In this document: piece by piece, positions 25,170-30,092 of the stretch
Layout: each line of letters opens with the position of its first letter
Position numbering within the stretch: the stretch's first letter is position 1
NCBI GenBank assembly: GCA_009886205.1
Contig: QXZU01000117.1
Span: 1-33,326, forward strand
Origin: K189A clade bacterium
GTDB lineage: Bacteria > Pseudomonadota > Gammaproteobacteria > Pseudomonadales > Azotimanducaceae
Length of the DNA stretch: 33,326 nt
Direction: 5' to 3'
Translations under genes and position numbers: made by a program
Notes under the pieces: model-generated
The model's database searches: none
What the model was told of the DNA's origin: nothing
Seen by the model: only the letters and a program-made list of their open reading frames with translations

Positions 25170-25204
25170 TTGTGAGCAGGCATTACCTGCTCACAAATTC
25201 TTTT
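25170..25204 (+). terminator. Strong hairpin terminator between the SDR gene and kdsB
   Basis: An 11 bp perfect stem (25170-25180 with 25186-25196, core TGTGAGCAGG/CCTGCTCACA) has a five-base loop and is followed on the plus strand by TTCTTTTT. It ends the SDR transcript. The same stem covers the last codons of kdsB, whose TAA (25183-25185) lies in the loop; no T-run follows on that strand. Confidence 0.85.
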
Positions 25205-25950
25205 TGCACCCTAGCCAAATCTTCTGGTGTATCCACACCGCCCGGTACGCTTTGACTTACATCTAGCACCAGCAAATCTCTACCTGCCTCTATCCAGCGC
25301 AACTGTTCCAACTTTTCAATGCGTTCCAATCTGGACTCACCCAAATTGACAAAAGTTCGCAGCCCCGCGACCCTAAAACCATAGATACCAATATGCCGTC
25401 GGGCCACGTCGCTTTGCATAAAGGCATCAAACAATTCCTCATCGTCAATGGATTCGCGAGGGTAAGGTGTCGGAGCGCGAGAAAAATTAATTGCCCGCAA
25501 ACCGTCTCCAACCAACACCTTCACAACATTAGGGTCCAAAAAATCGCGCCTGTTTGTAATGGGTTCGGACAACGTCGCCATCTCGATATCTGCCCTAGCA
25601 ACCATTGCCTTAAACAAGTCATCTACAATTTGTGGCGGCAACATAGGTTCGTCGCCTTGAATATTGATCACAAGGTCTTCATCGCCCCAACCCATTTCAT
25701 CAGCTACTTGCATCACTCTGTCTGATCCAGAGGGGTGGTCTGCACGAGTCATTACCCCTTGATAGCCCGCGTCCGCAACCACATCCAACACACGCTGATC
25801 ATCCACCGCGACCACTACATCGTCAGCCATAGTGTTGCTGGCCAGCGCGGCCACGTGAACAATCATCGGTACGCCGTTGATAAGGGCCAAGGGTTTACCC
25901 GGCAATCGTGAAGAGGCGTATCTAGCCGGTATAACAACGTGCATGGCCAT
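25183..25950 (-). CDS. kdsB: 3-deoxy-manno-octulosonate cytidylyltransferase
   Basis: A 255-residue enzyme that activates Kdo as CMP-Kdo for transfer to lipid A. Motifs: IPARYASSRLPGKPL (residues 7-21), TRADHPSGSDRV, NIQGDEPMLPP, and HIGIYGFR. The ATG at 25950 is chosen because AGGAG (25958-25962) is seven bases away and gives the family length; the open frame upstream lies within the lpxK sequence. It starts two bases after the upstream stop, so is coupled to the MsbA-LpxK frame, and all three activities belong to lipid A/Kdo synthesis. The trm112 gene often found between lpxK and kdsB is absent. Confidence 0.95.
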   Translation of the reverse strand: MAMHVVIPARYASSRLPGKPLALINGVPMIVHVAALASNTMADDVVVAVDDQRVLDVVADAGYQGVMTRADHPSGSDRVMQVADEMGWGDEDLVINIQGDEPMLPPQIVDDLFKAMVARADIEMATLSEPITNRRDFLDPNVVKVLVGDGLRAINFSRAPTPYPRESIDDEELFDAFMQSDVARRHIGIYGFRVAGLRTFVNLGESRLERIEKLEQLRWIEAGRDLLVLDVSQSVPGGVDTPEDLARVQKEFVSR

Positions 25951-25952
25951 AA

Positions 25953-28880
25953 CTAAACTCCTGCCTCTTGCGGTACGGCTAGCGTGTTTTGCGCCTCTAT
26001 CGTTGGCACCATTGGCACCATCGGCGCTATACCGCATTTGGCCAGCGTAGAGGCCAGAGCGCTGGCTATATCATCATCGAACACAACATCAATATCCAAA
26101 GACCACACGTTAGACAAATCAACGTCTAACTGAACTAACTTGGTAGCGTCTTTTTCCGTACAAACTACCGTCAACACATCAGAAAACCGGACCTCTTCGC
26201 CAGTGAATAAATGATGATCACTGTAAGCTTCAGGCTCCACTAGAAAGCCCAATTCAGATAAGGTGGAAAAGAAACGACTTGGATTGCCGATACCGCAAAC
26301 GGCGCGGACAGCGCTATGTTGCTGCAAAAACTCCGCAGCACTTACCTGCTGACCGTCCGCAAGACTTCTAAAGTATCGGACCTTAGGACGCATGACAATT
26401 TCGCTGCTCACCAGACCGGAGGCTTGCGCATTGGAAATGACAAGGTCTACATGATCTAACCGGCTTACCGGCTCTCTGAGAGGTCCTGCCGGCAACAGCC
26501 GACCATTACCTACTCCGCGAACCCCATCTATAACAACAATTTCCACATCACGGCCCATTGCATGATGTTGCAGGCCGTCATCGGAAATCACCACATCGCA
26601 ATTTTCGGATTGCAAAAAATCTAACGCTTTCATTCTGTCTGCCGCTATGGCGACTGGACAATTTAACCTGTTTTTCAACAGCACACCCTCATCACCATAA
26701 TGTAACGGGTCTGCGTGAAGGGGCACTAGTCCCCCTTTGTGACTGAGGCTGCCTTTATACCCTCTGGAGACAATACCTGGACTAAATCCGCGACGACGCA
26801 GCTCCTCAACCAGCCATATCACCAGCGGCGTCTTACCGGTGCCGCCAGCAGTAATGTTGCCCACTACAATAACGGGTAATGAAGTGCGCCCTGGCGTTTT
26901 ACTACCTGATCGATAAACATTCGCCCGACGTTGGCTAACCCAGCCGTAGAACCAAGAAAGAGGGGTCAAAATACTCGGCCACCAAGCGTTGGTATACCAA
27001 GCTTGGCTCAAGATATTAGCGGAGCGGTCAATAAAGGAATTAACCTTAGCCATACTTTTAGTATTGGCCAAATTCAGTGTTCCAGCATTCCCCAGCATCG
27101 CGAATTCATCTTCCAACTCAGGATCCGACTCATCTTGAAACTGAGCGGCATACAGCTCTGCATAGTGCCCACCTTGATTCAATAGCGACTTATGATCGCC
27201 CTGCTCAACAACTTGACCTTGATCTAAAACTACAATGACGTCAGCAGATTCTACAGTTGATAACCGGTGAGCAATGACAAGTGTGGTTCGGCCAGTCATG
27301 ACCTCTTCTAGAGCGGCCTGAATATATTTTTCTGATTCATTGTCTAATGCAGATGTAGCCTCATCCATAATTAGGATAGGCGAATCTTTCAGCAGCGCTC
27401 TGGCTATAGCGATACGCTGCCTTTGACCGCCGGAGAGCAAGACACCGTCATCGCCAACCACCGTATCAATCCCGTCTGGCAGCTTGTCAACAAATTCACT
27501 AGCGTAGGAGCGATCCAACGCTACCTTAATATCCTCATCTGATGCGTCCTTGGCATCACCATAAGCAATGTTATTTCTCAATGTATCGTTAAAGAGTGTG
27601 ACTTGTTGATTTACAACTGAGATCTGCCGCCGGAGGCTGTTCATCTCATAATCTCTCAAGTCGATACCATCTAGGGTGATAGCGCCGCCGCCTATTTCAT
27701 AAAACCGTGGCAATAAGCTGGCCAAGGTTGACTTGCCGCTACCCGACCGCCCTACTAACGCTACGCTCTGTCCTGGCTGAATGTTCAGTGAGATTTTACT
27801 GAGCACATTGGGGCCTTGCTCATTATAGGCAAAATCGACGTTATCGAACTTCAATGCTCCTGTAGCCTTTTCGACACTATGCGTGCCGCTATCCGCCTCA
27901 ATAGGCGAATCTAATTGAGCAAATATGTCTTCCGCCGCTGCGAAGCCGCGCTGCAGTTTCGCATTAACTTCGGAGAGCTTGCGAATAGGCTTTCCCAACA
28001 TACCGGCAAGCACAAGAAACGTCACCGCTTCGCCGCTAGTCAAACCACCACCTATTTCTGGGCGGTAAAGCATAATGATCAAACCACACAAAGCCGTGGC
28101 GATAATGGTTTCGTTTATCTGTGAACTAAGGACACGAGTCACCGCCATTTTTAAATTTTGCTGACGATTAACCTTATTTGCGCCCAAAAAACGCTGCTCT
28201 TCGTGGGACTTACCGCCAAATACTTTTACTACCCTGTAACCATTCACGGCCTCGGAGGCAACGTGAGTCACGTCACCCATTGAATGCTGAATACGCCGAC
28301 TGATTTTGCGGAACCGACTACTAGCAAACACCACCACCAAAGCCAAAACCGGCGCGGTGCCGATAAACAAAAGCGTAAGCTGCCAACTTTGAAAAATCAT
28401 CAGGCCGAGATACGCAATAACCTTGACGCCATCCTGTATCAGCGAGCGTAACGCATCGGTACCGGTATCTCTTAGCTGCGTTACCGTAAAAGTAATACGG
28501 GAAACTATGTGCCCTTGTGATTCGTTGTCGAAATAACGACTAGGTAATTTCAAAACCTGAGCAAACAACTCTTCGCGTAGGTTGTACACCACGCCAAAAG
28601 ATATCCGCGCCATCGCTGTTTCGCCAACGATGGTACCTACGGCGCGCACCAGCGTCACCGCCACCATCATGGCGGGTATTGATGCCGCCGCCCTAACCTT
28701 TAAATCATCCCATTGATCAATCAGCTCACCAAACAACTTAACAAAATAGGCTTCGGCACCGGCAGCAAACAAAAAGGCCACTACAGAGACTGTCATAATG
28801 AACCAATACCGCCCCACATATCGCAACAGTCTTCGATAAGTTTGCCAATCCGATGGTTTCGCTATAGCTGGTTGAGCCAT
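25953..28880 (-). CDS. Fused lipid A flippase MsbA and tetraacyldisaccharide 4'-kinase LpxK
   Basis: One uninterrupted 975-codon frame with two complete enzymes. Residues 1-580 are MsbA, the ABC exporter that flips lipid A: six membrane helices, then Walker A GRSGSGKST (377-385), LSGGQ (482-486), Walker B Asp506/Glu507 and His538. Residues about 615-975 are LpxK, which adds the 4'-phosphate: PLSWFYGW, P-loop GNITAGGTGKTP with Lys683, and SDDGLQHH. An acidic linker (DESDPELEDEF) joins them. Met610 could be an internal LpxK start, but it has no ribosome site. Both active sites face the cytoplasm, so the fusion is topologically possible. The genes are usually separate neighbours. kdsB follows two bases on, exbD precedes. 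Confidence 0.93.
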   Translation of the reverse strand: MAQPAIAKPSDWQTYRRLLRYVGRYWFIMTVSVVAFLFAAGAEAYFVKLFGELIDQWDDLKVRAAASIPAMMVAVTLVRAVGTIVGETAMARISFGVVYNLREELFAQVLKLPSRYFDNESQGHIVSRITFTVTQLRDTGTDALRSLIQDGVKVIAYLGLMIFQSWQLTLLFIGTAPVLALVVVFASSRFRKISRRIQHSMGDVTHVASEAVNGYRVVKVFGGKSHEEQRFLGANKVNRQQNLKMAVTRVLSSQINETIIATALCGLIIMLYRPEIGGGLTSGEAVTFLVLAGMLGKPIRKLSEVNAKLQRGFAAAEDIFAQLDSPIEADSGTHSVEKATGALKFDNVDFAYNEQGPNVLSKISLNIQPGQSVALVGRSGSGKSTLASLLPRFYEIGGGAITLDGIDLRDYEMNSLRRQISVVNQQVTLFNDTLRNNIAYGDAKDASDEDIKVALDRSYASEFVDKLPDGIDTVVGDDGVLLSGGQRQRIAIARALLKDSPILIMDEATSALDNESEKYIQAALEEVMTGRTTLVIAHRLSTVESADVIVVLDQGQVVEQGDHKSLLNQGGHYAELYAAQFQDESDPELEDEFAMLGNAGTLNLANTKSMAKVNSFIDRSANILSQAWYTNAWWPSILTPLSWFYGWVSQRRANVYRSGSKTPGRTSLPVIVVGNITAGGTGKTPLVIWLVEELRRRGFSPGIVSRGYKGSLSHKGGLVPLHADPLHYGDEGVLLKNRLNCPVAIAADRMKALDFLQSENCDVVISDDGLQHHAMGRDVEIVVIDGVRGVGNGRLLPAGPLREPVSRLDHVDLVISNAQASGLVSSEIVMRPKVRYFRSLADGQQVSAAEFLQQHSAVRAVCGIGNPSRFFSTLSELGFLVEPEAYSDHHLFTGEEVRFSDVLTVVCTEKDATKLVQLDVDLSNVWSLDIDVVFDDDIASALASTLAKCGIAPMVPMVPTIEAQNTLAVPQEAGV

Positions 28881-28889
28881 AAATGTAGC

Positions 28890-29330
28890 CTATTCCTTTG
28901 GGGGTTCTAATATTGGCTGGGTGGCCAAACTAATTTGAGTTAATCCTACCTGCGCACAAGCGTCCATAACTCGCACCACTGATTGATGAGTAGCAGTTGC
29001 ATCGGCGCTAATAACTACAGGCAAACTTGTCCTTCGTGCGGCATTTTTTTCAACAACTGCTTGAAGCGTTTTAGCAAGCCCTTGAAGAGATGTATCCACT
29101 ACGATACTGCCCTCTATTTCATAGCGCCCATTTTGCTGCACTACAACATTAATAAATAAATCCTCGTTTGGCTGAGCGTCACCGTTAGCTTGAGGAAGAT
29201 CAACATTCAACGCCTGATTTTGCACAAAGCTGGTAGACACCATAAAAAATATGAGCAGTAAAAAAACCACATCTATCAGCGGCGTTAGCTCTACTGTCGC
29301 TTCGCGACGACTGGCTCTAGAGCGCCTCAC
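28890..29330 (-). CDS. exbD: ExbD/TolR-family energy-transducing protein
   Basis: A 146-residue inner-membrane protein with one membrane helix (about residues 17-36) that carries the proton-channel Asp20 in LTPLIDVVFLLLIFF. The rest is the periplasmic domain. With ExbB it forms a proton-driven motor, here placed next to lipid A genes as in pseudomonads, rather than next to tonB or tolA. The start is GTG at 29330; an in-frame stop lies five codons upstream, so no longer form is possible. The ribosome site is weak. It ends nine bases before the MsbA-LpxK frame. Confidence 0.92.
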   Translation of the reverse strand: MRRSRASRREATVELTPLIDVVFLLLIFFMVSTSFVQNQALNVDLPQANGDAQPNEDLFINVVVQQNGRYEIEGSIVVDTSLQGLAKTLQAVVEKNAARRTSLPVVISADATATHQSVVRVMDACAQVGLTQISLATQPILEPPKE

Positions 29331-29426: not shown

Positions 29427-30044
29427 TCAATGAGAGTCCGCACTGACATCAACCCGCAGACGATCGAAAAAGCGCTGGCTAATACTGTCTATCTCCAAGA
29501 TCAATTCATCCACCTTGCGCAAGAAAAATCGGTGGGCTATCAAAGCCGGAATAGCCACTGACAACCCAGCGGCACTTGTTACCAACGCAGTTGAAATACC
29601 GCCTGCCAGAATCTTTGCGTCTCCCTGGCCTGCTGAAACCAACGTGCTAAAGACGTCGATCATGCCAAAGACCGTGCCCAAAATACCCATTAGTGGCGTA
29701 ATGGAGGCAATAATGCCGACTAAAGTTAAGTAGCGTTCAAGCTCATGGGCGACATTGTCGATAGTTGACTGCATGACCCGCTGAAAAGCGTCAGTCTGAA
29801 GATCTATACCATTCAAACCCGCCGCAATTACGTAACCCAAAGGCGAGGCAACGGCGAGTTCCGCCAAAGCCTTGCTATCACTTGACCAAGTTTGGCTGCT
29901 CTGCAATTGGCTCAGCAATTCCGCAGGTATGACCTCTTCACGCCGCAACGTCCACCAACGCTCCAAGCAAATAGCGCCGACTACCACGCTACAAAGAAGA
30001 ATAGGCAGCATCAACCAGCCGCCCGTTATAACTATATCCAGCAT
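29427..30044 (-). CDS. exbB: ExbB/TolQ/MotA-family proton channel protein
   Basis: A 205-residue inner-membrane protein with three predicted membrane segments (about residues 6-26, 105-130 and 145-175). It has the family's ITPLMGILGTVFGMIDVF and AGGISTALVTSAAGLSVAIPA motifs. It partners ExbD to harvest proton-motive force. The ATG at 30044 is preferred over a TTG four codons upstream, because GGGG abuts that TTG. There is a 96-base gap before exbD. It lies 48 bases after the PLP enzyme gene, where comEC is often found in relatives. Confidence 0.92.
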   Translation of the reverse strand: MLDIVITGGWLMLPILLCSVVVGAICLERWWTLRREEVIPAELLSQLQSSQTWSSDSKALAELAVASPLGYVIAAGLNGIDLQTDAFQRVMQSTIDNVAHELERYLTLVGIIASITPLMGILGTVFGMIDVFSTLVSAGQGDAKILAGGISTALVTSAAGLSVAIPALIAHRFFLRKVDELILEIDSISQRFFDRLRVDVSADSH

Positions 30045-30092
30045 GTAGTGAACCAACCCCTTTTAACTAACTGTAGACTCAACTGTAATCGG

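Follow-up and report, generated by a model that had tools for sequence, protein, structure and literature searches.

A conserved, recurrent MsbA-LpxK fusion in Gammaproteobacteria that would tether a lipid A kinase to the lipid A flippase

MsbA, the lipid A flippase, and LpxK, the 4'-kinase of lipid A synthesis, are reported to be essential in well-studied species (PMC6358824, PMC5555675), and have so far been studied as separate proteins. In Escherichia coli K-12 the two genes form an operon, msbA then lpxK, whose co-expression is mentioned in one report (PMC10328246), and they encode two proteins, with the msbA stop codon overlapping the lpxK start by 4 bases in a different frame. In the standard pathway, as outlined in one account, WaaA, LpxL and LpxM act between LpxK and MsbA (PMC12444477). 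Here, we describe a gene in which msbA and lpxK are joined, in the same order, within a single reading frame. It lies on a 33,326-nucleotide stretch of DNA (hereafter, the window; contig QXZU01000117.1 of assembly GCA_009886205.1) from a K189A clade bacterium of the family Azotimanducaceae. No description of an MsbA-LpxK fusion was found among the matches listed in searches of the open-access literature, which also covered SAR86 lipid A, scaffolds and domain architectures (subscription journals lay mostly outside this scope); we would guess that automated domain listings probably show the fused architecture. The finding is one of two known families in a conserved and recurrent covalent arrangement.

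The fusion gene (Table 1) sits exactly where an earlier note, made from the letters of the window, had placed a single frame, runs from an ATG to a TAG codon, and is on the minus strand, on which that note was silent. No stop separates the MsbA and LpxK domains of this 975-codon frame, and the fusion frame is confirmed as real. Its first part is a full-length MsbA with all motifs of the ATP-binding cassette (ABC) exporters, including an H-loop at H538; it matches the TIGR02203 profile over residues 14-583 with 688.6 bits, against a curated equivalog cut-off of 602, and is 41.5% identical to E. coli MsbA over 581 aligned residues. The second part contains the full LpxK domain, matched by PF02606 over residues 636-945 (322 bits, cut-off 27) and by TIGR00682 over residues 641-935 (230.1 bits, cut-off 91.95), so that LpxK is complete. 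Its P-loop, with Lys683 as the P-loop lysine, and its GDE, DDGxQH, LLPAGxLREP and DH motifs align with those of the solved LpxK structure 4ehw (a second being 4ehx), and identity to E. coli LpxK is 42.3% over 319 residues. The motif positions listed in the earlier note were all correct, as was its reading of the ABC-exporter motifs as followed by a complete LpxK; its figure of about 107 kDa for the protein comes down slightly, to a computed mass of 106.2 kDa.

Unlike E. coli MsbA, the fused protein carries a second enzyme at its C-terminus, and, unlike a separate LpxK, its kinase has no stop and restart ahead of it, the first helix of the kinase being preceded by a predicted disordered linker that extends from MsbA. 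An AlphaFold2 model built with 18 fused sequences (mean predicted local distance difference test score, pLDDT, 78.1; predicted template-modelling score, pTM, 0.51) shows both domains as mostly well folded, with pLDDT below 50 in the linker, at the two termini and in a small number of MsbA loops. It also predicts two helices ahead of the kinase, which are candidates for the membrane-associated N-terminal helix of LpxK. The 50 Foldseek matches listed for this model are MsbA or other ABC exporters, led by MsbA structures (solved examples are 9bd6, 6bpl and 8gk7). LpxK is absent from those matches, and its identification therefore rests on sequence. Ser, Ala, Pro and Glu abound in the linker. Pooled over five close relatives, the ratio of nonsynonymous to synonymous polymorphism (pN/pS) is 0.32 in the linker, 0.07 in MsbA and 0.13 in LpxK, which indicates that the linker is translated and under purifying but relaxed selection.

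The fused arrangement is the rule in the window's genus and family. An LpxK match was found in 36 of the 40 genomes of the genus, the four genomes without one being 58-70% complete. In 32 of the 36, LpxK lies in a frame of 941-995 codons, and a BLAST search with the frame confirmed the join in 29 of these 32; the remaining four loci run off contig ends, three of them (G014, G027 and G036) with MsbA and LpxK in a shared frame and the fourth (G019) in a frame that opens with an apparent MsbA tail, judged by eye. Across the family, LpxK was detected in 178 of 200 genomes and in 33 of 37 genera, and the join was read directly in at least one genome of 28 of the 33 LpxK-bearing genera; the genera outside this reading are g4, g21, g27, g31 and g35, the last represented by a genome (G144) whose msbA runs off its contig. 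Several shorter frames in the family are cut by contig ends (L100, L240-L243, L245 and L246), and two genomes, G098 and G205, are exceptions with broken frames.

Relatives with two genes and an intact boundary, which the earlier note had counted against a fusion, do occur, in genus g8: nine of the 13 loci read are split, three are fused and one (G205) is joined at this point and broken inside MsbA. The tree nests g8 inside the fused clade, so these are later splits. A single in-frame stop separates msbA from lpxK in four of the g8 loci L077-L085 (L079, L080, L084 and L085). In L080-L083, the earliest in-frame start for LpxK is a TTG that directly precedes the WY motif of the kinase, and L085 has the same TTG and another upstream.

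Beyond the family, the fusion is nearly universal among the LpxK-bearing genomes of a sampled order of 121 genomes around G381, an order which we equate with SAR86, an abundant group in the ocean, because its members group with named SAR86 loci in the tree, its genomes are small (0.7-1.8 Mb) and it comprises four families; SAR86 is likewise reported with four families in one source (PMC11582366). LpxK was found in 100 of these genomes (the other 21 gave none), in frames of 913-966 codons in 95 of the 100, and the join was read directly in five (G236, G381, G488, G712 and G764). The five LpxK loci outside long frames include one, in G797, that is in pieces with stops. All six SAR86-titled records among the best 80 loci of a scan of public genomes are also fused (L117, L128, L141, L149, L158 and L166). 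Four of these six records bear AG- names, taken as single-cell genomes, and two of those four titles say MAG (metagenome-assembled genome). In a class-wide sample of 369 genomes, LpxK was present in 347 and its frame length was read for 310, those outside the 310 belonging chiefly to genera already covered. Ten frames exceeded 900 codons, and nine of the ten are true fusions, in families f34, f165, f175 (SAR86), f49, f63, f68, f89, f157 and f166. The fusion is present in six gammaproteobacterial families beyond the window's family and the SAR86 order. An unfused genome stands in the same family as a fused one in f63 (L217), f89 (L215) and f157 (L216). The fusion is far commoner than the earlier note supposed.

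In the window's order outside the family, no true fusion was found among 135 genomes with LpxK, the sole long frame (G669) not being fused, and in the phylum sample outside the class no frame exceeded 816 codons among the matches listed. Two long frames, G669 (968 codons, L073) and G572 (950 codons, L076), were rejected as fusions, with MsbA and LpxK in different frames, which makes a long open frame alone a poor test of fusion. In both loci, LpxK sits in a stop-free frame that overlaps an msbA read in another frame, mimicking a fusion in searches by frame length. Frames of intermediate size (554-692 codons; G501, G414, G290, G352, G326 and G531) were likewise rejected.

Phylogenetic analysis suggests that the fusion was made more than once. 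Of the 133 loci picked for the trees, L163 proved too short and was removed, L177 and L184 were excluded manually, and the trees of 74, 37 and 35 rows are hand-picked subsets. The tree of MsbA plus LpxK with 37 rows and 892 columns, inferred using IQ-TREE with a mixture model, implies eight changes of state, seven of them forced by the starred branches alone, and none of 200 bootstrap trees (0%) can be explained by a single change; the 74-row tree implies nine changes, six of them forced, such counts alone being unable to separate gain from loss. Approximately unbiased (AU) tests, with 35 rows and a simpler model, reject a single clade of all fused and g8 rows (p 1e-59) and a single clade of the family's fused rows without the split genus g8 (p 1.2e-6), the second rejection marking g8 as a later split. 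A clade of the family plus SAR86 is not rejected (p 0.485), so that one fusion shared by the two may be possible, but the trees place unfused lineages beside SAR86. By these tests a single origin of the fusion is rejected, and the fusion seems to have arisen several separate times. It is old and has been retained across numerous lineages. The trees of MsbA plus LpxK place SAR86 among lineages of the window's order, whereas in one source the SAR86 order branches deeply within the class, close to Francisellales (PMC11582366). The SAR86 rows have an unusual letter composition, and either gene transfer or an artefact of the trees may lie behind this placement. In the 37-row tree an unfused locus (L069) stands beside part of the window's family, and either two gains or one further split within the family is possible.

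We consider it probable (roughly 0.6) that the gene encodes one bifunctional inner-membrane protein, favoured for its fixed ratio and co-location of the two activities. It would be a normal MsbA half-transporter whose ATPase domain bears a complete LpxK kinase on a flexible tether of ~40 residues. MsbA being described as a dimer (PMC6358824), each flippase would carry two flexibly tethered kinases; the fixed 1:1 ratio and the two kinases per dimer follow if the product stays whole, as it presumably does. The tether would hold LpxK at the cytoplasmic face, beside the lipid entrance of the flippase, and the gain would lie in a fixed ratio and in co-locating the lipid IVA-completing kinase and the exporter of the finished lipid, such that intermediates would not build up. 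Depletion of LpxK in Acinetobacter is reported to bring detergent-like intermediates to toxic levels (PMC5555675), and LapA/LapB are described in one account as a scaffold that gathers lipopolysaccharide enzymes at the inner membrane (PMC6358824); a covalent tether between LpxK and MsbA could be another way to the same end. The earlier note's view of the gene as encoding a single genuine MsbA-LpxK protein within a lipid A module is supported by three observations: the relatives, the coding signal through the joint, and the linkers without start codons in several members.

Several other explanations have to be weighed against this one. An assembly or sequencing artefact, a lost stop or frameshift, comes to mind for a genome in 210 contigs, and the earlier note had marked the joint for such a check; the same in-frame join recurs in 84 distinct loci from many separately assembled genomes, including the one-contig genomes G112 and G075, so that the relatives refute an artefact and its probability is negligible. 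More substantial, if still improbable, is the idea that ordinary MsbA and LpxK arise from the fused frame, through cleavage of the translated product or through additional initiation at an internal start. A protease could cut within the predicted disordered linker; the linker in the window contains two ATG codons, and a KSMAKVNSF stretch is retained there by the window's nearest relatives. The candidate starts in the window, however, have no Shine-Dalgarno-like stretch, the Met of KSMAKVNSF is Ile in L032, and eight fused members (L030, L087, L117, L128, L158, L179, L218 and L219), two of them from the family and six from SAR86 or the SAR86 order, lack any ATG, GTG or TTG in the linker. Among 77 family linkers, duplicates included, 33 contain an ATG, 3 an ATG with a Shine-Dalgarno-like stretch and 15 any start with such a stretch, the last count being not far below that among 126 separate LpxK genes used as a control (ATG in 95, a start with such a stretch in 32).

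A near-neutral fusion, in which neighbouring msbA and lpxK were joined by a cheap loss of the stop and the join was then kept although it serves no function itself, is unlikely, yet has to be reckoned with. Among 116 unfused loci read, msbA lies directly upstream of lpxK in 73; 17 of these 73 pairs share a frame, and in 16 of the 17 exactly one stop lies between, so that one stop-loss mutation is enough for fusion, which moreover arose several times and was undone in g8. A joint without consequence fits less well with retention in at least 28 genera of one family and in 95 of the 100 SAR86-order genomes with LpxK, with purifying selection on the linker near the window, or with the length of the linker in separate origins: from MsbA residue 577 to the WY motif of LpxK, the median span is 43 codons in 67 family loci and 39 in 17 other fused loci (29-57), about twice the 21 codons of the matching stretch in 70 unfused loci. 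A direct hand-off, in which the tethered kinase would pass lipid IVA straight to the flippase where lipid A is little processed further, appears very unlikely. Both enzymes act on a membrane lipid at the cytoplasmic side, where a tether would hold them within reach, and the SAR86-order genomes are small; but kdsB adjoins the fusion, which, given the pathway, would imply that Kdo (3-deoxy-D-manno-octulosonic acid) is made and added between the two steps, and E. coli MsbA is described as handling lipid IVA poorly (PMC6358824). Co-location and dosage balance are favoured over hand-off because WaaA and the late acyltransferases normally act between both steps.

The bifunctional-protein reading itself has points that weigh against it. 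LpxK and MsbA are not consecutive enzymes in the standard pathway; proteolytic cutting within the linker is possible; and the fusion, lost again in nine of the 13 g8 loci, is not indispensable. The Shine-Dalgarno comparison is a weak test because 15 of 77 and 32 of 126 do not discriminate, the comparison of span lengths has a p value of 1.5e-23 from a statistic that ignores kinship, and the structural model, at its pTM, is uninformative on the position of LpxK relative to MsbA. A further proposal, which we regard as doubtful, is that the fused protein is a built-in valve, with the kinase gated by the state of the flippase or the reverse, such that export capacity would set the rate at which lipid IVA is completed.

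Table 1. Positions in the window of the fusion gene, its parts and the adjoining genes
Feature	Position	Strand	Evidence
msbA-lpxK fusion gene	25953..28880	-	975 codons, ATG start, TAG stop; open reading frame list, sequence and family matches
MsbA transmembrane domain, residues 31-296	27993..28790	-	PF00664, 141.6 bits
MsbA ATPase domain, residues 360-510	27351..27803	-	PF00005, 109.9 bits; Walker A 377-385, LSGGQ 482-486, D506/E507
Linker, residues 582-618, predicted disordered	27027..27137	-	pLDDT <50; coding signal; start-codon survey
N-terminal helices of LpxK part, residues 616-629 and 634-657	26910..27035	-	Predicted helices; W628, Y629, P640 invariant in 18 fused proteins
LpxK kinase domain, residues 636-945	26046..26975	-	PF02606, 322 bits; TIGR00682, 230.1 bits; 4ehw/4ehx match, E ~1e-21
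LpxK P-loop GNITAGGTGKT, residues 674-684	26829..26861	-	G674, N675, G679, G680, T681, G682, K683 invariant in 18 fused proteins
LpxK motif SDDGLQHH, residues 766-773	26562..26585	-	D767 to H772 invariant in 18 fused proteins
kdsB (CMP-Kdo synthetase)	25183..25950	-	2 bases downstream of fusion stop; PF02348, 159.3 bits; TIGR00466, 226 bits
exbD/tolR-like gene, directly upstream of fusion	28890..29330	-	PF02472, 107 bits
exbB/tolQ-like gene	29427..30056	-	PF01618, 105.1 bits

The distance of two bases between the fusion and the CMP-Kdo synthetase gene, also given in the earlier note, holds if kdsB starts at the ATG at 25950; a longer kdsB frame, from 26037, is present as well. The remainder of the window looks like an ordinary bacterial stretch with fatty-acid synthesis genes, ribonuclease E/G, murB and others. 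The window's genome has a single LpxK and 22 places that resemble the fusion query, among which one MsbA-like exporter dominates (2166.8 bits for the fusion itself, 276.7 for the next). Two complete LpxC genes were observed in this genome (G000:C178:13865-14680, minus strand, and G000:C206:6095-6910, plus strand), as in G168 of the same family. In G168, the LpxK frame (L092:3789-4901) starts with an apparent vestige of the N-terminal part of MsbA, judged by eye, the rest of the adjoining MsbA being gone, and the genome has no MsbA above the TIGR02203 cut-off; this may be a real deletion or a misassembly. In the alignment with E. coli MsbA, R78, R148 and K299, which we take to be the basic residues that contact the lipid A phosphates, correspond to R79, Gln149 and Arg300 of the fusion, and Gln149 in place of Arg148 may go with a different lipid A headgroup. 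Codon 149 (window 28434-28436) encodes Gln here and in several family members, and Arg in others and in SAR86.

Four genera of the family, g11 (all five genomes sampled: G049, G080, G102, G119 and G134), g14 (both genomes: G052 and G083), g26 (one: G064) and g36 (one: G074), yielded no LpxK (PF02606) and no LpxC (PF03331) at the level of hidden Markov models, and no MsbA above the TIGR02203 cut-off. Eight of these nine genomes are at least 90% complete, and the same search found LpxC in six other genomes. From their gene content, these genera look lipid A-less within a family that otherwise carries the fusion, which fits loss of the fused gene together with the pathway. Counter to so neat a picture, G107 and G122 (g22), G130 (g2) and G144 have LpxC, yet no LpxK was found in them; the first three also have no MsbA above the cut-off, by a genome gap or real loss, and in G144 msbA runs off the contig.

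Annotation may name the fused gene by one of its halves only. With both enzymes on a single chain, the fusion also lends itself to structural studies of LpxK at a membrane. If the tether matters, evolution provides evidence here of a benefit to LpxK and MsbA from being kept together, and the fusion is a ready-made test of physical coupling between lipid A synthesis and export. Should the valve proposal be true, SAR86 and the window's family would control lipid A at the LpxK-MsbA protein, and not at LpxC only.

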